From Rhodococcus qingshengii JCM 15477 (GTDB lineage Bacteria; Actinomycetota; Actinomycetes; Mycobacteriales; Mycobacteriaceae), in contig NZ_CP096563.1 in assembly GCF_023221595.1 (NCBI RefSeq), positions 1,036,501 through 1,100,500 of the forward strand: a DNA stretch of 64,000 nucleotides, written 5' to 3'. Positions 12,686 through 25,010 of the stretch are shown piece after piece. The position numbers and the translations under genes are program-made. A model generated the notes under the pieces. That model was not told the origin of the DNA. It did no database searches and saw only the letters and a list, made by a program, of their open reading frames with translations. Each line of letters begins with the position of its first letter. The first letter of the stretch is position 1.

Positions 12686-13996
12686 TCAGAAGTAGGTGTG
12701 CACCGTGCCGACGACGCGGTAATCCGAATCGACCTCGGGAATCAGTGACCACTTGTCGAATGTGGTGCAGGGATGCGAGATTCCGCAACCGAGCAGATCG
12801 CCGACCTTCACGTCGAAGTCAGCCGGAACGTCGACGTACGCGTGCTGGTCGTTGAGTGCGGTGATCGTCAGCTCTCGCGCTGATCGGTTGGATCCGTCGC
12901 GTCGGCGCCACAGGACTATGGGAAAGCCTGCGTCGGAACCGACATCGCGGCGGCCGAAGCCCAGGATCACCCGTCCGGGTTCAGGTATGGAGAGCACTAC
13001 ACCCCAGACCTCTGCGGCTCCCTGCAGAGTTCGCGGACCGTCAGCCCACGGCGAAGTTTCGGCATAGAGACCGTGATCATGGGTGATATAGCAACCGCTG
13101 CGCAGCACGATGCGTACACCGTTGTCGAGTGCCCACCGGCCGGCCAGCTCGCGTACAACCAGATCGTGAAACGCACTGCCGCCGAAAGTGACCAGTGGCC
13201 TGGGAGCCTTCGCGGAGTTGTTCTCGAACAGGTTCTCGGCAATACAGATTTCCGTGAAAACCCGCGCGGATTTGAGATACGAATCGACGGAGATACGGCG
13301 GGCTGCTACCGAGGCTCCGGGCATCATGCCCTCGAACCCCTCGACTCCGGTGAGAATCAGCGAAGGTGCCTGCGATGCTGCGCGTGCGACGTCGAGTGCT
13401 TGCTCGACAGTGCGAGCGCCCGCGCGTCCGCTGTCGTAGCCGAGTTCGACGAGAACCCGGATACGGCTGGCCGGTGAGACTTTCGCGATCAACTGTTCCA
13501 TCAGGCGGACGCTCTCGACCGAGTCCACGAGGGTGGTGACGAAGAAATCGGGGTCGGTGGCCTGGGCGTCGCAGATCCACCGAATACCGGCGGGATCGAG
13601 AACCTGGCTGGCGATGATGATGGTGTCCACACCGAACTCACGCAGAATGCGTGCCTGCGCAACGGTTGCGGCTGTCATCGCCCAAGCCCCGGCGTCGAGT
13701 TGCCGTCGAACCAGTTCGGGGCTCATCGTGGTCTTCGCGTGAGGCGCCAGATCCACATCGTGGTCGGAGCAGAACTGCGCCATGAGGTCGACATTGTGCG
13801 CGATCGCTGCACGGTTGAGTGTCATCACGGGTAGCAGGAGGTTGCCGTCGAGTGCCGAGATCCCCAGCGGCTCGAGGTCGGAACCGTCGCGACCTTCGAG
13901 GTCGGTGCCGAAGGCCTTGTGCTGCCAACCGATCGGGGGGTTCGCGAAATCCGTCATGGCATCGATTGTGCCGTTGATTGCAGACGATGTGTTCAT
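12686..13996 (-). CDS. DSD1/D-threonine-aldolase-like PLP enzyme, amino acid deaminase
   Basis: A 436-residue fold-type III PLP enzyme with an alanine-racemase-like barrel first and a D-serine-dehydratase-like domain last. The PLP lysine lies in APHAKTTMSP, near residue 85. The C-terminal metal-binding segment is seen in GCGISHPCTTFDKW, with the His and Cys that bind zinc in D-serine dehydratase and D-threonine aldolase. Members act on D-amino acids, by elimination of D-serine or retro-aldol cleavage of D-threonine, and many are annotated as amino acid deaminases. The substrate here is undetermined. It is 47 bases downstream of the N-acyl-D-amino-acid deacylase and probably in one transcript with it, so it could consume the D-amino acid that enzyme frees. 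Confidence 0.85.
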   Translation of the reverse strand: MNTSSAINGTIDAMTDFANPPIGWQHKAFGTDLEGRDGSDLEPLGISALDGNLLLPVMTLNRAAIAHNVDLMAQFCSDHDVDLAPHAKTTMSPELVRRQLDAGAWAMTAATVAQARILREFGVDTIIIASQVLDPAGIRWICDAQATDPDFFVTTLVDSVESVRLMEQLIAKVSPASRIRVLVELGYDSGRAGARTVEQALDVARAASQAPSLILTGVEGFEGMMPGASVAARRISVDSYLKSARVFTEICIAENLFENNSAKAPRPLVTFGGSAFHDLVVRELAGRWALDNGVRIVLRSGCYITHDHGLYAETSPWADGPRTLQGAAEVWGVVLSIPEPGRVILGFGRRDVGSDAGFPIVLWRRRDGSNRSARELTITALNDQHAYVDVPADFDVKVGDLLGCGISHPCTTFDKWSLIPEVDSDYRVVGTVHTYF

Positions 13997-14043: not shown

Positions 14044-15519
14044 CTACGAGCGGCGTACCGGGCGACCAGGCAACGCGTCCTGGACCACGACACCGTCTTC
14101 GACGACGGGTACTCCGCCGACCAGCACGCGGCTGATACCGGTGGAGGGGCGGGTGCCGTCGATGTACGTGGCGTTGTCGGTGATTCGCTCGGGGTCGAAA
14201 ACGAGGATGTCCGCGTCGCTACCGGGGCTGATCCGACCTTTCGTCGCCATCGAGGGAACCGACTCCTCCAGAATCTGCGCAGGGATCAACGAGCAGCGCG
14301 CGATTATCTCCGACAGCGACAGCAGCCGACGCTCGCGGTACAGCGTACGAATCGCACGTGCGTAGGTGCCGGCGCCGCGGGGGTGGCCGAGTGCCTTCTT
14401 CGGCAGTGGCCACTGCAATGAGTCGGCAGGCGAACGGCCGGGCCAGGTCAGTGGCATCGCGTCGCTCGCGATGGCGGCGCGATCGAAAGTCATCGCCCGT
14501 TCGAGGAATTCGCGCTGCACGGTGTCGTTCTCGTCGAGGAACTCCACCAGCACCAACCCACCGGGGTCGGTGGCCCGAAGATGTTCCAGCTGCTTGCGGT
14601 CCGCGATACGTTCACCGGTGGGTACGAATGTCAGCGACCGTGGTGTCAGATTCATCAGGTGCAGCTTGTCGGGATCGAGAAACGCAGCTCCGACGGCCGT
14701 CGACCCGGAACCGTACGGATACGCCTCCGTCGTGACGCGCGATCCGGCTGCCTGAACCTGCGCCACCACCGACAGCGCGTGGTCGACGTGCATTCCCGAG
14801 GTGCTGTTGACGTGGCAGTAGTGCATGTGTGCGCCGGTTTCGGCTGCTGCACGGGCGATTTCGACGGCACCATCCACCGGGCTCGACGGATCGGCCGAGA
14901 TGAGAGGGCGCGCATGGGTATAGGTGGGAACACCGGCTCGCGCCGCGAGATCCGCCACCTGTAGGTACTCCACCGGATCGGATTTCGGCGCGTACCCGAC
15001 CACCACGCCGATGCCGAGAGCGCCTGCGGCCAGATCGTTTTCGAGGATTTCGAGAATGTGGGCGCGCTGAGAGGCGGTGGGCTCGCCCTGCCAGCTCGGG
15101 GAACCGAGATGGTGCAGGAGCGTTCTGATGTCGCCGTCGGGATCGGCCCCTGAGAGTTCGATCATTCGGGCGTGCGCCCACGACGTCGCGTAGCCGTAGT
15201 TGATCGGGCGGCCCTCGGCGCCGGCCCGGGCATATGCCTTTGCAACAGGAATGACGCCGGCTTCCAGTTCGAGGGCCGTCGTGACTCCGTCCAATGCCTG
15301 AAGTCGCTGCTCGGCGATTTCCTGTCCGTGGCTGTGCAGGTCGATGAATCCGGGGCAGATGACCTGACCGGTCACGTCGATCGTCTGCCGGGCTTCGATC
15401 GCGTCGCGACCCCACGCCGAGACCTTGCCGTCGGTGATCGCGATGCCCCGAACCTCGTCGGTCCCCGATGCGGGATCGACGACACGGCCGCCGGTGAACA
15501 CGATGTCGTGGACCTGCAT
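14044..15519 (-). CDS. N-acyl-D-amino-acid deacylase (amidohydrolase superfamily)
   Basis: A 491-residue D-aminoacylase-type amidohydrolase. These enzymes hydrolyse N-acyl-D-amino acids (or D-Glu and D-Asp derivatives) to the free D-amino acid. The N-terminal beta-sandwich (DIVFTGGRVVDPASGTDEV) leads into the metal site VICPGFIDLHSHG. HYCHVNSTSGMHVDHAL supplies further metal ligands, and AIASDAMPLTWPGR the catalytic Asp. The C-terminus returns to the sandwich domain (GSDADILVFDPERI). It is the first gene of a leftward pair with the DSD1-like enzyme and is divergent from the D-aminopeptidase gene. The substrate acyl group and side chain cannot be read from the sequence. Confidence 0.88.
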   Translation of the reverse strand: MQVHDIVFTGGRVVDPASGTDEVRGIAITDGKVSAWGRDAIEARQTIDVTGQVICPGFIDLHSHGQEIAEQRLQALDGVTTALELEAGVIPVAKAYARAGAEGRPINYGYATSWAHARMIELSGADPDGDIRTLLHHLGSPSWQGEPTASQRAHILEILENDLAAGALGIGVVVGYAPKSDPVEYLQVADLAARAGVPTYTHARPLISADPSSPVDGAVEIARAAAETGAHMHYCHVNSTSGMHVDHALSVVAQVQAAGSRVTTEAYPYGSGSTAVGAAFLDPDKLHLMNLTPRSLTFVPTGERIADRKQLEHLRATDPGGLVLVEFLDENDTVQREFLERAMTFDRAAIASDAMPLTWPGRSPADSLQWPLPKKALGHPRGAGTYARAIRTLYRERRLLSLSEIIARCSLIPAQILEESVPSMATKGRISPGSDADILVFDPERITDNATYIDGTRPSTGISRVLVGGVPVVEDGVVVQDALPGRPVRRS

Positions 15520-15722: not shown

Positions 15723-16568
15723 ATGCACGTCTATATTTCGGTGGACATGGAGGGTATCGCGGGTATCGCGACGCTCGATCAGACGATCCGCGGCGGTGGC
15801 GGCTACCACCGTGCGCAGATGCTCATGACCGCCGAGACCAATGCCGCGATCGCCGGTGCGTTCGACGCCGGTGCGACGAGCGTCCTGGTCAACGACAGCC
15901 ACGGAACGATGGACAATCTGCTTCACGCCGACCTGGATCCACGGGCGCGTCTGATCTTCGGAACACCGAAGATGCAGTGCATGGCGGAGGGACTGACGTC
16001 CGATCACGACGTCGCTCTGTTTGTCGGCTATCACGCACCAGCCGGTGGGCCCGGCGTCCTGGCGCACACGTTCTCGAGCTTGTTCGCCGACGTCCGCCTC
16101 GACGGCAAGTCCGTCTCGGAGACCGACGTCAACACCCTCTACGCTGCCACCCAGGGCGTTCCCGTCGGCCTGGTGACGGGTGACGACATCATCTGCGGCT
16201 TGGTCGACGCGGCCTCGCCGACAACCGAGACCGTCGAGGTCAAGAAGGCACATGGATGGTCGGCAACCAATTCGCTGCCGCCGTCGCTGGCGTGCGAGCA
16301 GATCCGAGCAGGAGCCGAGCGCGCAGTGCGTAAGGCCGACACACTGAAGCCGGTCGAGCTGCGTGACGAATGGACCCTCGAGATCGTTCACCCCACCACC
16401 ACAGGAGCTGAACTCGCCGAGGCTGTTCCCGGCTCGCGACGGATTTCGGATCGTACGATTTCGCACACACTCGGCAGCGTCGACGACATTCTCGGTCTGA
16501 TCACTGTCAATGCCCGGCTTGCAGCCGCAGGCGTCTCGACGATCGTGGCAGTCGCCAATCGCACGTAG
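15723..16568 (+). CDS. D-aminopeptidase, DppA-like (peptidase family M55)
   Basis: A 281-residue zinc peptidase of family M55, whose founder is Bacillus subtilis DppA, a D-Ala-specific aminopeptidase. The motif SVDMEG at the N-terminus, VNDSHGTMDNL near residue 57, and FVGYHAP with HTFSS near 100-120 supply the metal ligands and active-site groups of the family. It probably releases D-amino acids from the N-terminus of short peptides such as peptidoglycan fragments. It lacks a signal peptide and is cytoplasmic. It stands between the divergent D-aminoacylase and the MFS operon, closed by its own terminator. Confidence 0.9.
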   Translation: MHVYISVDMEGIAGIATLDQTIRGGGGYHRAQMLMTAETNAAIAGAFDAGATSVLVNDSHGTMDNLLHADLDPRARLIFGTPKMQCMAEGLTSDHDVALFVGYHAPAGGPGVLAHTFSSLFADVRLDGKSVSETDVNTLYAATQGVPVGLVTGDDIICGLVDAASPTTETVEVKKAHGWSATNSLPPSLACEQIRAGAERAVRKADTLKPVELRDEWTLEIVHPTTTGAELAEAVPGSRRISDRTISHTLGSVDDILGLITVNARLAAAGVSTIVAVANRT

Positions 16569-16589: not shown

Positions 16590-16624
16590 AAATGCCGCCG
16601 ACGCCGTGTGCGCCGGCGGCATTT
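16590..16624 (+). terminator. Terminator after the D-aminopeptidase gene
   Basis: AAATGCCGCCG pairs with CGGCGGCATTT (11 bp) across a 13-base loop, starting 21 bases after the stop codon. It separates the D-aminopeptidase from the MFS-led operon. Confidence 0.7.
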
Positions 16625-16675
16625 GTCATCTCTTGGGGCAGAACATGTTCCGACCGACCAAACGTTGCTTCGGCT

Positions 16676-16694
16676 ATTGGTGAAACGGACCAAT
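16676..16694. promoter_or_regulatory. Inverted repeat in the promoter of the MFS-kynA operon
   Basis: ATTGGT-gaaacgg-ACCAAT is a perfect 6-bp inverted repeat with a 7-base spacer, about 80 bases before the MFS start. A further GACCAAA lies 20 bases upstream. It is a reasonable operator for a dimeric regulator, possibly the PucR protein encoded at the end of the operon; this is inference. Confidence 0.4.
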
Positions 16695-16776
16695 GCGGTA
16701 GACGTGTTCGCTGTCACACTTCATCAGTCTTTTCAATGTTCCAGTCCATGCGGCACAAGACAATTCGGGAGGCTTG

Positions 16777-18057
16777 ATGAAGGCGGAACGCGTCACAGTG
16801 GAAGGACCGTCGCGGGCGAGCGACGGTCCGGTTCGAAATATGATGGACAACAGGTCGATTCGTCGTACGACCACCGTTACGGTGGGGCTGCTCAGTACCA
16901 TCTGGTTGATCGACATGGTGGATCGCGTCATGATCGGGCTTGCGCTTCCGATGATCGGCGACGAATTCTCGCTCAGCAGTACGCAGTTGGGTGGCGTGGT
17001 CTCGGTATTCGCGATCTTCTACATGCTCGGGCAGGTCCCCGGCGGAATGTTGGCCGACCGCTTCGGACCCAGGCCCCTGTTGATCGTTGCTTTGATCCTG
17101 TGGTCGGTGTTCACAGCGTTGACAGGGTTCGCGTGGGGTCTCGTCTCGCTGATGGTCATGCGTGCGATGTTCGGCATCAGCCAGGGGCTCTTTCCAGCGG
17201 CGTCGTTCAAGGCTTTGGCTGAGCGGACGCGTCCGAAAACCAGGGCGACCGCGATGGGTTTCATGCTCGGCGCCAACAACCTCGGCCCCGGCATCGCACC
17301 GCTGATCATCGCGCCGGTCCTCATGGCCGTGGGGTGGCGTGACGCGTTCTGGCTGGTGGCGATCGTCGGCGCAGTGATCGGCACGGTGGTGTGGTTGGTG
17401 CTGCCCGCACCGTTGGACACGGAAATCTCGGAAGATCCCGAGGCAGCCTTGCAACCTCTGGCGAGCGAGCACTCTCGCGCCGCCGTGTTCAAGTCCGCGT
17501 CGGTGTGGAAGTTCGCGATTCTGTTCTGCCTGGCCAACATGTCCGCGTACGGGCTGATGACCTGGGTGCCGAGTTATCTGCTCAACGACAAGGGACTCTC
17601 GCTGATCGACACGGGAATCTTTGCCGCAATCCCCTTCATCGTCACGGCGCTGGCCACGATTGTGGGCGGGCGGTTGGTGGACAAGTACTTCCACGACCGG
17701 GCCAGGATCCTTCTGGTTCCGTGTATGGCCACGTCGGCAGTCCTGTTGTTCCTGATGACCACCGCTGACACCGTCGCGATGTTCACGTTCTACGAGACGT
17801 TGGCTCTAGGCATCAGCGGTCTGTGTTCGATGTCGATCTTCGCGATGCCGTTGCGGGCACTTCCGGCCGAATTCCTCGGTTCCGGAATGGGTTTGATCAA
17901 CGGTTGTGGTCAGTTCGCCGGTTTCATCACCCCGCTCGTGATGGGATGGATGGTGGACCAGTTCTCGTACATGGCTGCATTCGGAGTCCTGGTCGGAGCG
18001 ACGAGCGCTGCCGCATTGGTGGCCATGATCGTTCCTCAGACCCCGGCGAAATTCTGA
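16777..18057 (+). CDS. Major facilitator superfamily transporter
   Basis: A 426-residue MFS permease with twelve predicted helices. The motif between helices 2 and 3, GGMLADRFGPRPLL, is typical of the anion:cation symporter group, which takes up organic acids and related solutes. The N-terminal 30 residues are hydrophilic, and the central loop near 210-240 (DTEISEDPEAALQPLASEH) is acidic. ATG 16777 follows GGGAGG at four bases' distance; an in-frame ATG pair about 65 bases later is possible. It begins a run that continues with tryptophan dioxygenase and the D-to-L conversion genes, so it probably imports the amino acid or acyl-amino acid they use. Confidence 0.88.
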   Translation: MKAERVTVEGPSRASDGPVRNMMDNRSIRRTTTVTVGLLSTIWLIDMVDRVMIGLALPMIGDEFSLSSTQLGGVVSVFAIFYMLGQVPGGMLADRFGPRPLLIVALILWSVFTALTGFAWGLVSLMVMRAMFGISQGLFPAASFKALAERTRPKTRATAMGFMLGANNLGPGIAPLIIAPVLMAVGWRDAFWLVAIVGAVIGTVVWLVLPAPLDTEISEDPEAALQPLASEHSRAAVFKSASVWKFAILFCLANMSAYGLMTWVPSYLLNDKGLSLIDTGIFAAIPFIVTALATIVGGRLVDKYFHDRARILLVPCMATSAVLLFLMTTADTVAMFTFYETLALGISGLCSMSIFAMPLRALPAEFLGSGMGLINGCGQFAGFITPLVMGWMVDQFSYMAAFGVLVGATSAAALVAMIVPQTPAKF

Positions 18058-18071
18058 CAAGGAGACCGAAG

Positions 18072-18929
18072 ATGTCGGCAACGGACGGCACACGAAAGAT
18101 CGAAGACGACGTCGTCACCGATTTTTCCGGGAAGATGAGTTACGGGGCCTACCTCGGACTCGATACCCTCCTGGATTCGCAGCACCCGGTGAGCGAGCCG
18201 GAACACCACGACGAACTCTTGTTCATCATTCAGCACCAGACCAGCGAGTTGTGGCTCAAGCTGTTTCTCCACGAGATTCGGGCGGCCAGAGCAGCGATCG
18301 CTGCCGACGACATTCGGGTTGCGTTCAAGCGGATCGCACGTGTCAAACACATTCAGGCCACCTTGACCGAGCAGTGGTCGGTGTTGGCGACACTGACGCC
18401 GGCGGAGTATGCGGAGTTCAGGGGCGTTCTCGGCAACTCATCGGGGTTCCAGTCGTACCAGTACCGCGCCGTGGAATTCGTGCTCGGAAACAAGAACGCG
18501 GGCATGCTGAAGGTGTTCGAATCGGATCCGTCCGCCCATCGATTGTTGGAGACCCTGCTCGGGGAGCCGACACTGTACGACGAGTTCTGGCGGTACCTGT
18601 CCAGGCAGGGGTACGACGTTCCGGCGTCGGCTCTCGAACGAGACGTCAGCGCGCCCTACGTGCGAAACGACGAACTGATTCCGCTGGTCAAAGCAATCTA
18701 CGAGAACGTCGAACAGCACTGGACGGCGTACGAGGCGTTCGAGGAGTTGGTCGACCTCGAGGAGAGCTTTCAGCTGTGGCGGTTCCGGCACCTTCGGACC
18801 GTGCTGCGGGTGATCGGCATGAAGAAGGGGACCGGCGGTTCGAGTGGTGGTGCCGGCTTCCTGCAACGTGCGCTGGAGTTGAGCTTCTTTCCCGAGCTGT
18901 TTGCCGCCCGAACAGAGATCGGTACCTGA
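18072..18929 (+). CDS. kynA: Tryptophan 2,3-dioxygenase
   Basis: A 285-residue haem enzyme that opens the indole ring of L-tryptophan to give N-formylkynurenine. The family's segments are clear: MSYGAYLGLDTLL near residue 25, DELLFIIQHQTSELWLKL near 50 (contacts to substrate and haem), SSGFQSYQYRAVEFVLGN near 120, and WRFRHLRTVLRVIGMKKG near 240, whose His should be the haem ligand. AAGGAG lies seven bases before the ATG, and only 14 bases separate it from the MFS gene, so the two are co-transcribed. No kynurenine formamidase or kynureninase is nearby; those steps must be encoded elsewhere. Confidence 0.95.
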   Translation: MSATDGTRKIEDDVVTDFSGKMSYGAYLGLDTLLDSQHPVSEPEHHDELLFIIQHQTSELWLKLFLHEIRAARAAIAADDIRVAFKRIARVKHIQATLTEQWSVLATLTPAEYAEFRGVLGNSSGFQSYQYRAVEFVLGNKNAGMLKVFESDPSAHRLLETLLGEPTLYDEFWRYLSRQGYDVPASALERDVSAPYVRNDELIPLVKAIYENVEQHWTAYEAFEELVDLEESFQLWRFRHLRTVLRVIGMKKGTGGSSGGAGFLQRALELSFFPELFAARTEIGT

Positions 18930-19072
18930 CACACCTGCTTGATGACACCCAGCTGTTCGTGACACACGACGAATCCGAGCCCGAAGGACAGGAGTCTTGG
19001 ACAAGATCCGACAGGGTCGCTTCGACCAAGCTTGACTGCGAAGTTGCAAGTCGGTGACAGGAGAGCGTCGGA

Positions 19073-20167
19073 GTGGACAAGAAATCAATGGTGGCAGACC
19101 TGGCGGCGTTGGTAACCGCCGAGTCGCCCAGTTCCGATCTCGGCGCAGTCGATGCATGTGCGGACGTGGTGGCCGAAATCGGCGAACGCCACCTCGGAAG
19201 CACCCCCGAACGTATCCGCATAGACGGGCGCCAGCACTTGCGTTGGTCGTTCGGCGCGGAGCCGAAGGTGATGCTCCTGGGCCATTTCGACACCGTCTGG
19301 CCGCTCGGAACGCTCGCGGAGTTGCCCTGGTCTGTCACCGACAACATCGCCACCGGACCCGGAGTCTTCGACATGAAGGCCGGCATCGTCCAGCTCTTCC
19401 ACGCGCTCGCATCGCTTCCGTCGCTCGACGGGGTGGTCGTGCTCCTCAATTCCGACGAGGAAATCGGCTCCCCGACCTCGCGCGCACTGATCGAGGAGCA
19501 AGCACGTCAGGTCGACGCGGTGCTGGTCCTCGAAGCCGCAGCCGACGGCGCAGTGAAGACCGCGCGCAAGGGTATGTCGCTGTACTGCGTCGACATCGAG
19601 GGACGCGCTGCACACGCCGGACTGGAACCGGAACGAGGTGTGAACGCTGTAGTGGAGCTCGCACACCAGATTCAGGCCGTGGTGGAGCTCGCGGACCCGG
19701 CGGCGGGAACGTCGGTGGTTCCGTCCGTGATCAGTGGCGGCACGACCACCAATACTGTTGCAGCGCAAGCGCAACTGTGGTGTGACGTTCGCATGTGGTC
19801 GGCGAAGGAACAGGAACGCATCGACCGTTCGATCCGTGCACTGACACCGGCGCTGGCCGAAAGTCGAATTTCGGTGTCCGGAGGCCCCAACCGTGGACCA
19901 CTGGAATCAGTGTCTTCGGAGAAGCTGTACTTTCTCGCTCACCAGGTCAGCAGTGAGAGCGGTTTGGGGATGCTGCGCGACTGCGCCGTCGGCGGTGCAT
20001 CGGACGGAAATTTCACTGCCGCAGTAGGAACTCCCACGTTGGACGGCCTCGGTGCCGTCGGCGGTGGCGCCCACGCAGCGACAGAACACGTAGAGATAGA
20101 TCAGATGATCCCGCGCGCCACCTTGTTGGCCGGTCTGGTGACTCGAATCCTGGAGGGAGGACTGTGA
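19073..20167 (+). CDS. M20-family amidohydrolase, probable N-acyl-L-amino-acid hydrolase
   Basis: A 364-residue peptidase-M20 enzyme of the carboxypeptidase G2/ArgE type. Metal ligands are seen in MLLGHFDTVWP, ATGPGVFDMKAG, LNSDEEIGS and VLEAAADGAVKTARKG, with the dimerisation domain in between (HAGLEPERGVNAVVELAHQI). Such enzymes cleave an acyl group from an L-amino acid. It starts with GTG 19073 and overlaps the next gene by four bases (GTGA). Placed with a GNAT acyltransferase and an N-acylamino-acid racemase, it is best read as the desuccinylase that releases the L-amino acid at the end of the D-to-L conversion route. A folate- or peptide-cleaving role remains possible. Confidence 0.85.
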   Translation: MDKKSMVADLAALVTAESPSSDLGAVDACADVVAEIGERHLGSTPERIRIDGRQHLRWSFGAEPKVMLLGHFDTVWPLGTLAELPWSVTDNIATGPGVFDMKAGIVQLFHALASLPSLDGVVVLLNSDEEIGSPTSRALIEEQARQVDAVLVLEAAADGAVKTARKGMSLYCVDIEGRAAHAGLEPERGVNAVVELAHQIQAVVELADPAAGTSVVPSVISGGTTTNTVAAQAQLWCDVRMWSAKEQERIDRSIRALTPALAESRISVSGGPNRGPLESVSSEKLYFLAHQVSSESGLGMLRDCAVGGASDGNFTAAVGTPTLDGLGAVGGGAHAATEHVEIDQMIPRATLLAGLVTRILEGGL

Positions 20168-21123
20168 CGATGACGTCGCCGAACAATGTCCAACGCAAGA
20201 CCGTTCAACCATTCGGAGGTGTATCGCCTTCACGGATGCGGCAAGCAATCAGCCAGGCCGAGCAGGCCGCCCTGCTTGCATGTGTGACTATCGAAACCGT
20301 CACCGGGCATGCCGAGTTGGAACAGGTATTCGGTCTGTTCGAGAAGGTATGGCAGCCGGAGAGCGGTAACCCTCCCGTCCATCGGGACATGATGAAAGCG
20401 CTCGCACACTCCGGTAACTACGTCGCCGGCGCGTTTCGTGGTGGAGACTTGATCGGCGGCTCGGTTGCATTCTTCGAGGAACCGCAACATCGTTCTTTGC
20501 ATTCACACATCACGGGGATCCTCCCGAACGTGCAGAACGGGCACATCGGCCTCGCGTTGAAACTGTTCCAGCGAGCGTGGGCACTGGAACGGGGAATTCT
20601 CCACGTGCGGTGGACTTTCGACCCGCTCGTCGCACGCAATGCCTACTTCAACGTCTCGAAACTCGGTGCGTTCCCGATCCAGTATCTGCCGCGTTTCTAC
20701 GCGCCGATGAACGACAGTCTCAACGGCGGCGCAGACAGCGACCGATTGCTGATCGACTGGGAAATCGGTAGTAGCAAGGTTGCCGACGTCGTCGCCGGTT
20801 CGGGAGAAGTCCCGACTCCCGAGTCCTTGGGGGCGAGCGAACTGTTGTCGATCTCCGAAGCCGGCCTGCCCGTGTTGAAGTCGACCAAGAATCGATTCGT
20901 CACGGTGGCTACACCGAATGACGTGTACACACTGCGTAAGTCGGACCCGGCGGCGGCGAACGACTGGCGCCTGGCAGTCCGCGAGACTCTCGGTGGTGTG
21001 CTCGCCGAGAACGGAGTGGTTCTCGCAGTTACCAGAACCGGAAAGTACGTGCTGGACCGTGCGCCGGGAACACAGGCAGGCAGGACAACAGCGGAGGTTA
21101 CATCGGAAAATCGACGGAGTTGA
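20164..21123 (+). CDS. GNAT-family N-acyltransferase, candidate D-amino-acid N-succinyltransferase
   Basis: A 319-residue protein with an N-terminal GNAT fold. LFEKVWQPESGNPPVHRDMM and GGDLIGGSVAFFEE resemble the uncharacterised COG3375 acetyltransferases, followed by GILPNVQNGHIGLALKLFQR, the acyl-CoA binding turn. The last 120 residues form a separate region with no motif I recognise. In Geobacillus an enzyme of this kind succinylates D-amino acids before racemisation. The four-base overlap with the M20 gene upstream and the close junction with the racemase downstream support the same role here, but acyl donor and substrate are inferred. Confidence 0.78.
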   Translation: MTMTSPNNVQRKTVQPFGGVSPSRMRQAISQAEQAALLACVTIETVTGHAELEQVFGLFEKVWQPESGNPPVHRDMMKALAHSGNYVAGAFRGGDLIGGSVAFFEEPQHRSLHSHITGILPNVQNGHIGLALKLFQRAWALERGILHVRWTFDPLVARNAYFNVSKLGAFPIQYLPRFYAPMNDSLNGGADSDRLLIDWEIGSSKVADVVAGSGEVPTPESLGASELLSISEAGLPVLKSTKNRFVTVATPNDVYTLRKSDPAAANDWRLAVRETLGGVLAENGVVLAVTRTGKYVLDRAPGTQAGRTTAEVTSENRRS

Positions 21124-22219
21124 ATTACGCCGGGCGGCAATGCCGTTGAAAGCGCCGTTCCGTACCTCGTTCGGCACCGAGACCACCAAGGACGTGTTGT
21201 TCGTCAAGGTAGTCACCTCGGAGTCGGAGGGCTGGGGCGAGTGCGTGGCGATGTCCGAGCCTCGCTACTGCTCCGAATACACGGACGGCGCCGCCGAAGT
21301 CCTTCGTAAGTTCCTGATTCCGTCTCTGGGTCAACTCACCGATCCCGACGTGCACGCACTGAGCGCGACGATGGAACAGTTCGCCGGGCACCCCATGGCC
21401 AAAGCGGCACTGGAAACCGCATTTCTCGACGCCGAGTTACGGGCTGCCGGGACGAGCATGTCTTCGTACCTGGGCGCGGTGGTCGATCGCGTACCCGCGG
21501 GTGTCTCGGTGGGTATCAAGAATTCGATCGATGAGCTGCTAGAGGAGGTAGGCGGGTTCCTCGATGCCGGATACCTGCGCATCAAACTGAAGATCGAACC
21601 GGGCTGGGACATCGAGCCGGTTCGCGCAGTCCGCGAGAGGTTCGGCGACGACGTACTCCTCCAGGTCGACGCGAACACCGCGTACACCCTGGCTGACGCC
21701 CGCCATCTCCAGCGGCTCGACGACTTCGACCTCCTGCTGATCGAGCAGCCGCTTCCCGAAGAGGAACTGCGCGGCCACGCCAGGCTGGCCGAGATGATGC
21801 GGACGCCGGTCTGCCTCGACGAGTCGATCACCTCCGCGAAGGTCACCGCCGACGCGCTGGCAATCGGTGCGTGCAGCGTGGTGAACATCAAACCGGGACG
21901 TGTGGGCGGTTATCTGGAATCGCGTCGTATCCACGACGTCTGCAAGGCCAACGGAATTGCCGTGTGGTGCGGCGGAATGCTCGAGACCGGAATCGGCAGG
22001 GCCGCCAACGTCGCGCTTGCCGCGCTCCCCGGATTTGTCCTACCAGGCGATACATCGGCTTCCGACCGGTACTTCGCCGAAGACATCACCGAGCCGTTCG
22101 TACTCGACAACGGTTACGTGAAGGTTCCGGAAGGACCGGGTATCGGCGTCGAACCGATCCCCGACCTGCTCGAAGCAATTACCACGTCGGTCGAATGGAT
22201 CGGCATGGATCGGCTTTGA
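21059..22219 (+). CDS. N-acylamino-acid racemase / o-succinylbenzoate synthase family (enolase superfamily)
   Basis: An enolase-superfamily enzyme of the MenC/NSAR branch. All catalytic residues are visible: the KxK motif in RIKLKIEPGWD, metal ligands in LQVDANTAYTL, LLIEQPLPEEEL and CLDESIT, and the second-face lysine in VVNIKPGRVGG. In this setting an N-succinylamino-acid racemase is far likelier than a menaquinone enzyme. The start is uncertain: the conserved first strand (KIDGVELRR) begins at 21107 with no ATG, GTG or TTG just before it. The nearest usual codon upstream is GTG 21059, inside the acyltransferase gene; ATG 21140 would delete that strand; an ATC at 21110, 12 bases after GGAGG, would be unusual. 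Confidence 0.85.
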   Translation: MRREHRQAGQQRRLHRKIDGVELRRAAMPLKAPFRTSFGTETTKDVLFVKVVTSESEGWGECVAMSEPRYCSEYTDGAAEVLRKFLIPSLGQLTDPDVHALSATMEQFAGHPMAKAALETAFLDAELRAAGTSMSSYLGAVVDRVPAGVSVGIKNSIDELLEEVGGFLDAGYLRIKLKIEPGWDIEPVRAVRERFGDDVLLQVDANTAYTLADARHLQRLDDFDLLLIEQPLPEEELRGHARLAEMMRTPVCLDESITSAKVTADALAIGACSVVNIKPGRVGGYLESRRIHDVCKANGIAVWCGGMLETGIGRAANVALAALPGFVLPGDTSASDRYFAEDITEPFVLDNGYVKVPEGPGIGVEPIPDLLEAITTSVEWIGMDRL

Positions 22220-22266
22220 CGAATCACTATGACACACTTCGTTCACCGGACGAAGGAGTGATAGAC

Positions 22267-23886
22267 GTGGGCACCGTACGACCTCGCATCAGTTTGGTGC
22301 GGCTTCTCGAAGACGTGGGAACTACGGTGCTGAATCCGGTTGTCGGCGACCCGGAGGCGGTCCAGGAGATCGCCTCGGTGGTCATTCACGACCCCGACGA
22401 CGACTCACCCTCGACACCGGACTCCATGGTGCTGCTCGTCGGCGTCACCGGAGGCGAACGTATCGCCGAGTCCGTGGCCGGCCTGGCCGAGCGCGGAGTA
22501 CGCGTGGTGGTCGCGCGAGTGACCACCGAGGTCAGCGATGCGGACCGCGAATCCGTCATCGCCTCGGGCGTCGTGCTGTTGGCCTTGGCGCGTGGCGTCT
22601 CGTGGGTTCAGCTGACAAGCCTGCTTCATTCGGTGCTCTCGGCCCGAAACGAAGTCGGGCACATCCACTCACGCGGAGGCGGCCCGGCCGGCGATCTGTT
22701 CGCCTTCGCCAACGCTGTCAGCGCACTTCTCGATGCGCCGATCACGATCGAGGACCGCAGCTCACGGGTCATCGCCTTCTCCGGCCGCCAGGAAGAAGGA
22801 GACGGTCCACGTATCGCGACCGTTCTGGAGCGGCAAGTTCCTGACCAGTACATTCGAGTGCTCGAAGAGGCCGGGGTCTTCGACCGGCTCTATCGCAGCG
22901 ACGATCCGGTGTGGGTCTCGGCCGAGACCCTCGGTACCAAAATGGGTCGTATCGCCGTGTCCATCAGAGCCGGCGACGAGTTCCTCGGCTCCATGTGGGT
23001 GGCAACCGGTGAGCCGATGTCCGACGACCGGATGCGTGCTCTGCGCGATTCTGCCGGGTTGATCGCGCTGCAGATGTTGCGGTTGCGCGGCGGTGCCGAC
23101 GCCGAGCGCCGACTGCGCGCAGACCTGATCGCAACCCTTCTCGACGGTGGGTCAGGTGCGGTCGACGCGATGAATCGCCTCGGTCTCGGGACCGGCCCCG
23201 CACTCGTGATGGCTTTGGGTCGTAGGTCTTTCGAGGGATCGTCGAAGCCGGACGATGCCGCCCACGTGGTGCGACTGACCGACGCTCTGGCCATGCACCT
23301 CGGCGCCGTCCACTCGCAGTCGGCGGCAGCCTTGGTCAACGGAACCGGCTACGCGGTGCTGTCTGTACGAGGGCATTCCCCGGCCGAAGCCGAGTTGCAG
23401 GCGTTCCGTGTGGCCTCGGACTTCCTGGACCGCACCGGAGCGTCCGGCGACACGATCATCGGGATCGGCCGGGTCGTGACCAGACCGGCGCAGCTGAGCC
23501 GATCGAAGCGCGACGCCGAACATGCCCTCGAAGTGTTGTTGGCGGGACGAGCGTCGGGCAGCGTCGCCACCTTCAGTAGCGTCCACGTCGATGCCATCCT
23601 GTTGGAGATCGCGTCGGAAGCTGCAGCCGAAGGGTTCTCGGACCTCGGACCGATCGAGGCGATCGCCAGCCACGACGCCGCTCATGCGACCTCGTTCGTC
23701 GACACTCTCGATGCGTGGCTCAACGCGTTCGGTGATGTCGGTGACGCCGCGGCGTCATTGCACGTGCACCCCAACACCTTTCGGTATCGTCTCAGCAAGT
23801 TGAAGGGTATGGCCGCGTTGGATCTCGACGACCCCAACGTCCGCTTCCGGTTGATGGTGCATCTTCGTCTGCGCGGTCCACGCTAG
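22267..23886 (+). CDS. PucR-family transcriptional regulator
   Basis: A 539-residue regulator with an N-terminal PucR-type sensing domain (about residues 1-130; RISLVRLLEDVGTTVLNPV), a central GGDEF-like/CdaR linker, and a C-terminal PucR helix-turn-helix (about 475-539), where SLHVHPNTFRYRLSKLKGM contains the recognition helix. PucR proteins activate purine, amino-acid or aromatic catabolism genes on binding a metabolite. GTG 22267 is chosen because GAAGGAG lies nine bases upstream. It is the last gene of the MFS-kynA-M20-GNAT-racemase run, 47 bases after the racemase, and is the obvious candidate regulator of that operon. The terminator behind it ends the transcript. Confidence 0.88.
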   Translation: MGTVRPRISLVRLLEDVGTTVLNPVVGDPEAVQEIASVVIHDPDDDSPSTPDSMVLLVGVTGGERIAESVAGLAERGVRVVVARVTTEVSDADRESVIASGVVLLALARGVSWVQLTSLLHSVLSARNEVGHIHSRGGGPAGDLFAFANAVSALLDAPITIEDRSSRVIAFSGRQEEGDGPRIATVLERQVPDQYIRVLEEAGVFDRLYRSDDPVWVSAETLGTKMGRIAVSIRAGDEFLGSMWVATGEPMSDDRMRALRDSAGLIALQMLRLRGGADAERRLRADLIATLLDGGSGAVDAMNRLGLGTGPALVMALGRRSFEGSSKPDDAAHVVRLTDALAMHLGAVHSQSAAALVNGTGYAVLSVRGHSPAEAELQAFRVASDFLDRTGASGDTIIGIGRVVTRPAQLSRSKRDAEHALEVLLAGRASGSVATFSSVHVDAILLEIASEAAAEGFSDLGPIEAIASHDAAHATSFVDTLDAWLNAFGDVGDAAASLHVHPNTFRYRLSKLKGMAALDLDDPNVRFRLMVHLRLRGPR

Positions 23887-23957: not shown

Positions 23958-24854
23958 TCAGCTGTTGTTGCGAAGTGCTTCGACAGCGATGCGGCCGACG
24001 GTTCCGATGGAGGCGTCGATCTTCGGGGCGCGGTGGGTGAGCTCGTGGGACTTGGTGAAGACACCGACGGCGTAACGCTTGCCGTCCGGGTACGCCACGA
24101 CGCCGGCTTCGTTTCGTACCAGTCCCAGCGTTCCGGTCTTGGCGGCGACAGTGACCTCGTCGGGGAAACCGGACGAAAGGCGGTGCGGCCAGACCTGCTT
24201 GCTCATGATGGTTCGGACCTCTTCACAAGCCGATGCGGGGCCGGCTTCATCCCTCCAGATTGCAGCCAGCAACATTGTGATCTCACGAGGAGTACTGGAA
24301 TTGGAGCGGGCGGGATCCATGACGGAAATTGTCCGAAGAATTTCGATGGGGGGCATTTCCAGCAAGGTGCCCTTGTCGACGCCGAGGTCGTCGTAGACCG
24401 TCTTGAAGAGGCCTCGGCAGTCACGGACCAAGTTGGTCTTCTCCAAACCGAGCCCGCGCAGCGTTGCGACGATGTTGTCGAGTCCGAGACGCTCGTACAA
24501 GAAATCCGTGGCGGCGTTGTCGCTGAAGCTCATCATGAGCAGAGCGAGGTCTCGCCAGCTTGCAGTCACGTCGTCGGCGCAGCCGCCGATACCGATGCCG
24601 CCGGAGCGGAACTCGGCGGTCACCGTGGCGTGCTCGGTCGGATCAAGGGTGCCTGCCGCTACTTCACGGGCGTACTGAAGCACAACAGGAATCTTGAAAA
24701 CGGAGGCGAGGATGACACCTTCGTCCGCGCCGTAGCCGAACTCTTCGCCGGAATCGATGTCGCGTGCGTGGACGTAGGCATCGGTCTTCGCTTCGGCGAG
24801 TACAGCAGCGATCTCCTGCTGTGCGCTCTCAACGTACGTGGCGGTTTCGGTCAT
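23958..24854 (-). CDS. Class-A beta-lactamase-like serine hydrolase
   Basis: A 298-residue serine hydrolase with the penicillin-binding fold. The three active-site elements are present: SVFK (Ser and Lys of SxxK) in ASVFKIPVVL near residue 72, SDN in MSFSDNAATDFL near 132, and KTG in VAAKTGTLG near 243. There is no signal peptide (it opens MTETATYVESAQQEIAAVL), so it is probably cytoplasmic. That argues against a resistance beta-lactamase and for a peptidase- or esterase-like role. ATG 24854 is preferred; an ATG 27 bases upstream lacks a good ribosome site. It lies beside the D-amino-acid island and converges on PucR, but no sequence feature ties it to that pathway. Confidence 0.83.
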   Translation of the reverse strand: MTETATYVESAQQEIAAVLAEAKTDAYVHARDIDSGEEFGYGADEGVILASVFKIPVVLQYAREVAAGTLDPTEHATVTAEFRSGGIGIGGCADDVTASWRDLALLMMSFSDNAATDFLYERLGLDNIVATLRGLGLEKTNLVRDCRGLFKTVYDDLGVDKGTLLEMPPIEILRTISVMDPARSNSSTPREITMLLAAIWRDEAGPASACEEVRTIMSKQVWPHRLSSGFPDEVTVAAKTGTLGLVRNEAGVVAYPDGKRYAVGVFTKSHELTHRAPKIDASIGTVGRIAVEALRNNS

Positions 24855-25010
24855 TCGAGAAGCCCTTTCGTCGGTATCCATGTATCTGGGTTATTCGTGG
24901 ATCTGACGATAGTGAGTCGACGACGGGGGGTCTTGTACGAATCGACGAAGGTTGGCGCACGGTTCGGTGCTGATACGCCGAATCATCCGGGCGTCGGGGT
25001 GTTCTCCGGA

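Follow-up and report, generated by a model that had tools for sequence, protein, structure and literature searches.

A tryptophan 2,3-dioxygenase gene next to a putative N-succinyl D-amino-acid inversion cassette in the Rhodococcus erythropolis clade

In Geobacillus kaustophilus, D-amino acids are reportedly converted to their L forms through N-succinyl intermediates by a GNAT succinyltransferase, an N-succinylamino acid racemase (NSAR) and an L-desuccinylase, a pathway attributed to Sakai et al. in 2006. Here we analyze a stretch of 64,000 nucleotides, hereafter the window, from Rhodococcus qingshengii JCM 15477 (GCF_023221595.1, contig NZ_CP096563.1, positions 1,036,501–1,100,500 of the forward strand; coordinates below are window-relative), in which the same three kinds of enzyme are encoded side by side on one strand, preceded by a major facilitator superfamily (MFS) transporter and a tryptophan 2,3-dioxygenase (TDO) and followed by a PucR-type regulator. 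The likeness to Geobacillus is one of enzyme kind and adjacency, and the active site of the racemase is kept; unlike the Geobacillus system, the Rhodococcus set is actinobacterial, comes with a PucR gene, has an MFS–TDO pair upstream in one clade and has predicted activities. Gene content, order and residues support membership in the N-succinyl pathway. We propose, at a probability of roughly 0.48, that the TDO serves this D-to-L cassette as an outlet for D-tryptophan.

For the racemase (about 21104..22219, + strand), the closest described system is the N-acylamino acid racemase of Amycolatopsis (1SJA, 4A6G). The window enzyme aligns with 1SJA end to end and without a gap (536 bits, E 3e-160), and K163, D189, E214, D239, K263 and R266 (1SJA numbering) are all present; among these, K163 and K263 presumably act as the Lys/Lys pair of NSARs, and D189, E214 and D239 as the three acidic metal ligands. 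The M20 metallohydrolase (19073..20167, +; PF01546, PF07687), a putative N-succinyl-L-amino-acid desuccinylase, has carboxypeptidase G2 (1CG2) as its nearest solved relative and carries M20-like motifs. Between them lies the GNAT (20164..21123, +), a putative succinyl-CoA:D-amino-acid N-succinyltransferase, to which no Pfam, NCBIfam or PDB sequence matched at the thresholds used. Its closest named homologues are annotated as GNAT family, and its AF2 model (mean pLDDT 81.5, 18-row alignment) matched GNAT acetyltransferase structures in Foldseek (best E 1.9e-7, probability 1.00) over ∼160–200 alignment columns of 319 residues, with TM scores of 0.56–0.82 by target and about 0.4 by query among the 50 matches listed. 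A good part of the protein, the C-terminal third by the model, would thus lie beyond the GNAT core. The PucR protein (22216..23886, +), the usual end gene of the cassette, matched a C-terminal helix–turn–helix (PF13556, 68.2 bits) and a GGDEF-like domain (PF17853, 35.7), and no further PucR domain at 0.001. According to PMC8142540, catalysis by NSARs involves two lysines and a divalent metal, and the Amycolatopsis enzyme has been assayed in vitro on N-acyl substrates, whereas the window racemase is predicted from its sequence.

A sequence-only reading of this DNA had described six genes of these kinds on one strand, ending in a PucR gene and including a racemase with its full catalytic residue set and a trio like that of Geobacillus. 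All of this was borne out by strand, families, adjacency, the 1SJA alignment and the GNAT fold, the last by a predicted model and with no sequence-family match. All six genes are real and maintained under purifying selection. Ratios of nonsynonymous to synonymous change (dN/dS; Nei–Gojobori) against four relatives (G001, R. erythropolis NBRC 15567 or G002, G012, and IEGM 1409 or G022) were 0.011–0.029 for TDO, 0.048–0.109 for MFS and 0.014–0.064 for the other four genes; since these values all fall within 0.011–0.109 and the block is syntenic in the same four genomes, the genes are not a product of chance.

We compared the position of TDO across 28 genomes of the genus; within the loci compared, a gene was counted when tblastn matched it at E 1e-10 with 30% query coverage. 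TDO was found in 19 genomes, at 98–100% identity in five, 73–77% in 13 and 35% in one. It lies beside the GNAT in five of the 28, namely the window's own genome, G001, G002, G012 and G022, all of the R. erythropolis clade; these are the genomes with the 98–100% TDO, and in all five the MFS–TDO pair has the same place and orientation, between an M55 D-aminopeptidase gene and the cassette, while the block running from a histidine kinase to a glycosyltransferase gene is syntenic throughout. An accident of one strain, one half of the outcome that would have spoken against the sequence-only reading (the other being separate transcripts), is therefore rejected. Every one of the 13 TDOs at 73–77% adjoins kynU instead. 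Of the 14 genus TDO loci that do not belong to the clade, 12 had 17–20 kb fetched around them, namely the one at 35% and 11 of those at 73–77%. These neighborhoods held no match to GNAT, NSAR, M20 or PucR; the other two (G011, G016) were judged from their TDO and kynU matches.

Beyond the genus, the GNAT was detected at E 1e-30 in 35 of 401 family genomes and 122 of 393 class genomes. TDO was found in none of the 28 GNAT-bearing family genomes outside the genus; an empty result of this kind says little without a positive control, though the query used was the one that had hit 19 of the 28 genomes within the genus. In the class, TDO was sought in 80 of the 122 GNAT-bearing genomes, omitting 34 of families f24, f32 and f36, the genomes G422 and G441, and six weak ones of f34. 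TDO was present in 62 of the 80, the window's included. In 17 of the other 61 the two genes share a contig and are never closer than 38 kb, and in 44 they are on different contigs (tables read by eye), where draft assembly could hide neighbors; in none of the 61 was TDO within 20 kb of GNAT on one contig. A general actinobacterial rule is likewise rejected, with TDO in two of 80 named cassette loci (each from the R. erythropolis clade), in none of the 28 family genomes and at no neighboring position in the class survey. The expectation of a kynA–trio linkage conserved in actinobacterial genomes thus held for the five genomes of one clade and for none found beyond it, and as far as seen from these sequences the linkage is a clade trait. 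Among the titles and abstract openings listed from the open-licence literature, none joins TDO with a GNAT–NSAR–M20 trio.

The cassette itself has a much wider distribution. The 80 named loci are the best 80 of 581 from a GNAT alignment search, which could not reach copies lacking GNAT; three are from Rhodococcus, and genes were matched in them at E 1e-12 with one best match per place. NSAR was matched in 75 and PucR in 65; M20 was matched in 62, and another M20 type in five (one locus having both). Further matches were to an oligopeptide-type permease in 51 (some just 27–33% identical), a deacylase in 13 (three of them Rhodococcus, and one match at 24% identity), MFS in seven and TDO in two. 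The order M20-GNAT-NSAR is kept in 65 loci and M20-GNAT-NSAR-PucR exactly in 46, and in 50 PucR comes immediately after NSAR in the same orientation. By gene content and order, the cassette is a common module and not a tryptophan module. Among the known clusters closest to this locus are those of Amycolatopsis, Kutzneria, Actinosynnema and Streptomyces atratus (L072, L073, L077, L093, L097), which have the deacylase, GNAT, NSAR, PucR, an MFS transporter 49–52% identical to that of the window and a class-A-type serine hydrolase, with an M20 match in three of the five; unlike the window, they have no TDO, and their MFS gene is downstream of PucR. Because relatives of the MFS transporter accompany the cassette without TDO in these five loci, it need not be a tryptophan carrier, and its earlier assignment as a D-tryptophan importer is not supported. 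The window's genome also holds a second M20-GNAT-NSAR set at 5.29 Mb (L056 7887–10930, G000:C1), beside an oligopeptide-type ABC permease, with M20, GNAT and NSAR 54%, 39% and 58% identical to the window's by tblastn. The GNATs of the two sets are 4.2 Mb apart in the window's genome, 13 kb apart in IEGM 1379 (G023) and 17 kb apart in KBS0724 (G017).

Two cassette-bearing relatives show what the locus looks like without its upstream pair. In G023 and G017, the block from M55 through the cassette to PucR is present at 89–95% identity, MFS is absent from it and no TDO was found genome-wide; in G017 (L043 655–4357) M20, GNAT and PucR are present with no racemase between GNAT and PucR, and a second-set racemase lies near by. 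The 228-nt M55–M20 spacer of G023 splits between the two spacers of the window. Its first 100 nt score 63 with the M55–MFS spacer (shuffle maximum 33) but 22 with the TDO–M20 spacer. The remainder scores 122 with the TDO–M20 spacer (shuffle maximum 44) but 20 with the M55–MFS spacer. Upstream, a segment at 16591..16727 (+) resembles the G023 spacer with 99/150 identities and a score of 73 (shuffle maximum 49), best kept up to about the breakpoint. Downstream, the segment at 18941..19063 (+) matches both the G023 spacer (102/135 identities, score 123, shuffle maximum 42) and the shorter G017 spacer (84/110, score 108, shuffle maximum 47), and is a conserved leader of the M20-GNAT-NSAR-PucR cassette. 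Support for both sides of the breakpoint comes from G023, as the G017 spacer matches on the M20 side only, with no match on the M55–MFS side (score 28, shuffle maximum 40). This split suggests that MFS–TDO entered or left the locus as a unit at a single point, with the cassette leader kept downstream of TDO; gain is most likely, favored by parsimony only.

The same spacing bears on the idea of one operon. MFS and TDO are 14 bp apart, and M20 through PucR are joined by three overlaps, so the description of short gaps or overlaps suits both groups; it does not suit the 143 bp between TDO and M20, and with the conserved cassette leader in that gap two transcripts are possible, so that a single transcript of all six genes is not supported. 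Scans for promoter-like sites (0 seen against 1.3 expected) and terminator-like sites (3 against 5.6) were uninformative.

The TDO (18072..18929, +; PF03301 195.3 bits, cut-off 34.9) aligns over its full length, residues 6–283, with the bacterial TDO structure 2NW7 (342 bits), and the heme-ligand and tryptophan-binding residues F51, H55, Y113, R117, H240 and T254 are present. Its score of 378.6 with TIGR03036 is 12 bits below the cut-off of 390.7. Seven further TDOs also fell below it: P0121, from the window's 99% cluster, at 374.9, and six from other lineages (four beside kynU, one from Nocardia and one from another Rhodococcus) at 372.4–384.7. The shortfall is common to relatives and marks a group rather than this gene, and a truncated TDO is rejected. 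In the TDO tree the window's enzyme forms a separate branch that groups, with weak support (84/51), with two Rhodococcus sequences, which does not support a simple vertical kynA of the genus. In Rhodococcus sp. 27YEA15, which has a GNAT at 71% (P0004) and a TDO at 74% (P0205) on contigs of equal length, the TDO groups with Nocardia rows. The kynA–kynU operon of Rhodococcus (11 loci, L044–L054) has a TDO 71–76% identical by tblastn to the window's, beside kynU and followed by a PaaX-like gene (144.6 bits in L052, under the cut-off of 264.55). The TDO of the window, by comparison, adjoins MFS and the cassette, and its genome carries kynBU far away and in a different type (kynU 38–42% identical).

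This remote pair, kynB–kynU, is adjacent at 5.73 Mb on the same contig, 4.7 Mb from the cassette (L066 5625–9733, G000:C1). KynB scored 224.7 with TIGR03035 (cut-off 223.05) and KynU 323.8 with TIGR01814 (cut-off 246.4); kynA was not found in the 17 kb read around them. Beside them lie a divergent gene for an Lrp-like regulator (73 bits, under cut-off) and one for an amino-acid permease whose best model was AroP (325 bits, under cut-off), and the kynBU–permease block recurs in four genomes (G015, G017, G021, G023; L170–L173) where no TDO matched. All five genomes with a 98–100% TDO have kynU; for two of them, the window's and G002, an adjacent kynB was confirmed. A search aimed at TDO, which did not extend to indoleamine 2,3-dioxygenase, found a single TDO in the window's genome. 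Because one TDO and a remote kynB–kynU are both encoded, the gene set from D-tryptophan to anthranilate appears complete on paper in the window's genome and in G002. Of the proposed D-tryptophan catabolic operon, then, the gene set survives, as N-succinyl-pathway anatomy, the genome's one TDO and kynB and kynU elsewhere, while its dedication to D-tryptophan as one operon is not supported.

Taken together, we infer the following route, including its substrates, direction and co-regulation and D-tryptophan as a real substrate. The GNAT would succinylate D-amino acids using succinyl-CoA, the NSAR-type enolase would racemize the N-succinyl product, and the M20 enzyme would remove succinate from the L form, with PucR as the regulator. 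The cassette probably has a broad range and is probably fed by D-amino-acid-releasing neighbors of the M55 D-aminopeptidase and N-acyl-D-amino-acid deacylase types. TDO is generally held to prefer L-tryptophan, and L-tryptophan made by the cassette from D-tryptophan would pass through the genome's one TDO to N-formylkynurenine, which the remotely encoded KynB and KynU would carry on to anthranilate and alanine.

That the cassette inverts D-amino acids is likely, by analogy with the Geobacillus pathway. The coupling of TDO to it is favored by the other D-amino-acid enzymes next door (M55, the deacylase kind and a pyridoxal phosphate (PLP) enzyme). Several points weigh against this coupling. A tryptophan role of the GNAT, racemase or M20 enzyme is conjectural, and since G023 has a racemase 95% and a GNAT 91% identical to the window's though it lacks TDO, nothing suggests that the cassette was retuned for tryptophan; with the cassette also common elsewhere without TDO, the earlier view of a trio dedicated to D-tryptophan is not upheld. 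MFS–TDO and the cassette may be separate transcripts, given the leader between TDO and M20, and the start of the racemase is damaged in the window's own strain and intact in five relatives. The pair could then be an independent unit for L-tryptophan or another indole compound, supplying the first step for the orphan kynB–kynU and functionally unlinked to the cassette, an explanation we regard as a serious contender at somewhat less than even odds. It fits a clade whose kynB–kynU has no kynA, whereas the 13 genus TDOs at 73–77% adjoin kynU; it also fits the leader that parts TDO from M20 and the existence of the cassette elsewhere without TDO. Yet MFS and TDO keep one place and orientation in 5/5 genomes with this TDO, and kynBU already has an amino-acid permease, so a second L-tryptophan carrier is not obvious. 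The stronger form of the coupled proposal, in which the kynurenine entry step in the R. erythropolis clade left a kyn operon for a D-amino-acid locus under PucR control, with TDO made together with the N-succinyl converters of D- to L-tryptophan as one stereo-inverting locus, is tentative and, in our judgment, rather doubtful.

Two other explanations turn on the racemase. Plants contain N-malonyl-tryptophan, including the D form, and the MFS transporter might import such N-acyl-amino acids or other acyl conjugates, with the racemase turning N-acyl-D into N-acyl-L forms, M20 freeing L-tryptophan for TDO and the GNAT being secondary. An N-acyl-D-amino-acid deacylase-type gene near by and the kinship of M20 with carboxypeptidase G2 agree with this, as does a table in PMC8142540 in which enzymes of the racemase family also take N-acetyl substrates. 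The cassette nevertheless retains a GNAT that would be superfluous (in surveys that began from GNAT and were blind to copies lacking it), and we consider this reading improbable. Least probable is that the enolase is the o-succinylbenzoate synthase (OSBS) of menaquinone synthesis, even though the OSBS model TIGR01928 gives it 307.9 bits over a cut-off of 200.65, and the Amycolatopsis enzyme first named N-acylamino acid racemase was later judged an OSBS in function, as stated in PMC4215206. A different type of OSBS, dedicated to that step, is encoded elsewhere in the genome (NF002782 470.1 bits, cut-off 288); it frees the racemase from menaquinone synthesis, and on this ground the OSBS assignment is rejected; the place between GNAT and PucR in 50/80 loci also speaks against it.

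The damaged start deserves description. In G001, G002, G012, G022 and G023 the racemase begins at a conserved GTG overlapping the GNAT stop; in the window's strain this site (21104..21106, +) is one base short, which alters both frames at the junction, leaving the GNAT five codons longer than in the five orthologues and the racemase without its normal start. Remaining in-frame candidates include GTG 21059 and ATG 21140; a start at the ATG would remove roughly a dozen N-terminal residues. Because dN/dS is low (0.028 against G002), the change would be recent or an assembly error.

The MFS gene (16777..18057, +; PF07690 199.7 bits), half of the clade-specific pair, follows the gene for the M55 D-aminopeptidase (15723..16568, +; PF04951 295 bits; DppA model NF058634 183.8, under its cut-off of 430), which by genus synteny is the upstream neighbor both with and without MFS–TDO. 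Further upstream on the minus strand are a putative amidohydrolase resembling N-acyl-D-amino-acid deacylases (14044..15519; NF006560, PRK09061, 727 bits, cut-off 340), although NF006560 itself is titled 'amidohydrolase family protein' and has no D-specific name, and a PLP enzyme named by family resemblance as of the D-serine dehydratase or D-threonine aldolase kind (12686..13996; PF14031 59.9 bits, PF01168 40 bits), which scored 69 bits with the 3-hydroxy-D-aspartate aldolase model NF045642, under its cut-off of 690. Convergent with PucR lies a class-A-beta-lactamase-like serine hydrolase (23958–24881; NF033103 84.5 bits, cut-off 200), matched in 18 of the 80 cassette loci (three Rhodococcus, the remaining 15 at 41–58% identity); it may belong to the module, hydrolyzing D-peptides or D-esters, and not serve in resistance.

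Family models would call the racemase an OSBS and leave the GNAT nameless, and the GNAT-NSAR-M20-PucR cassette is nonetheless widespread in actinobacteria. Users of D-tryptophan, from peptides or plant conjugates, would need an inversion step, since TDO is held to prefer the L form. The clade with TDO beside a putatively irreversible D-to-L cassette, together with its cassette-only relatives, could provide a natural experiment on how a converter of D-amino acids in general acquires an outlet for one of them.

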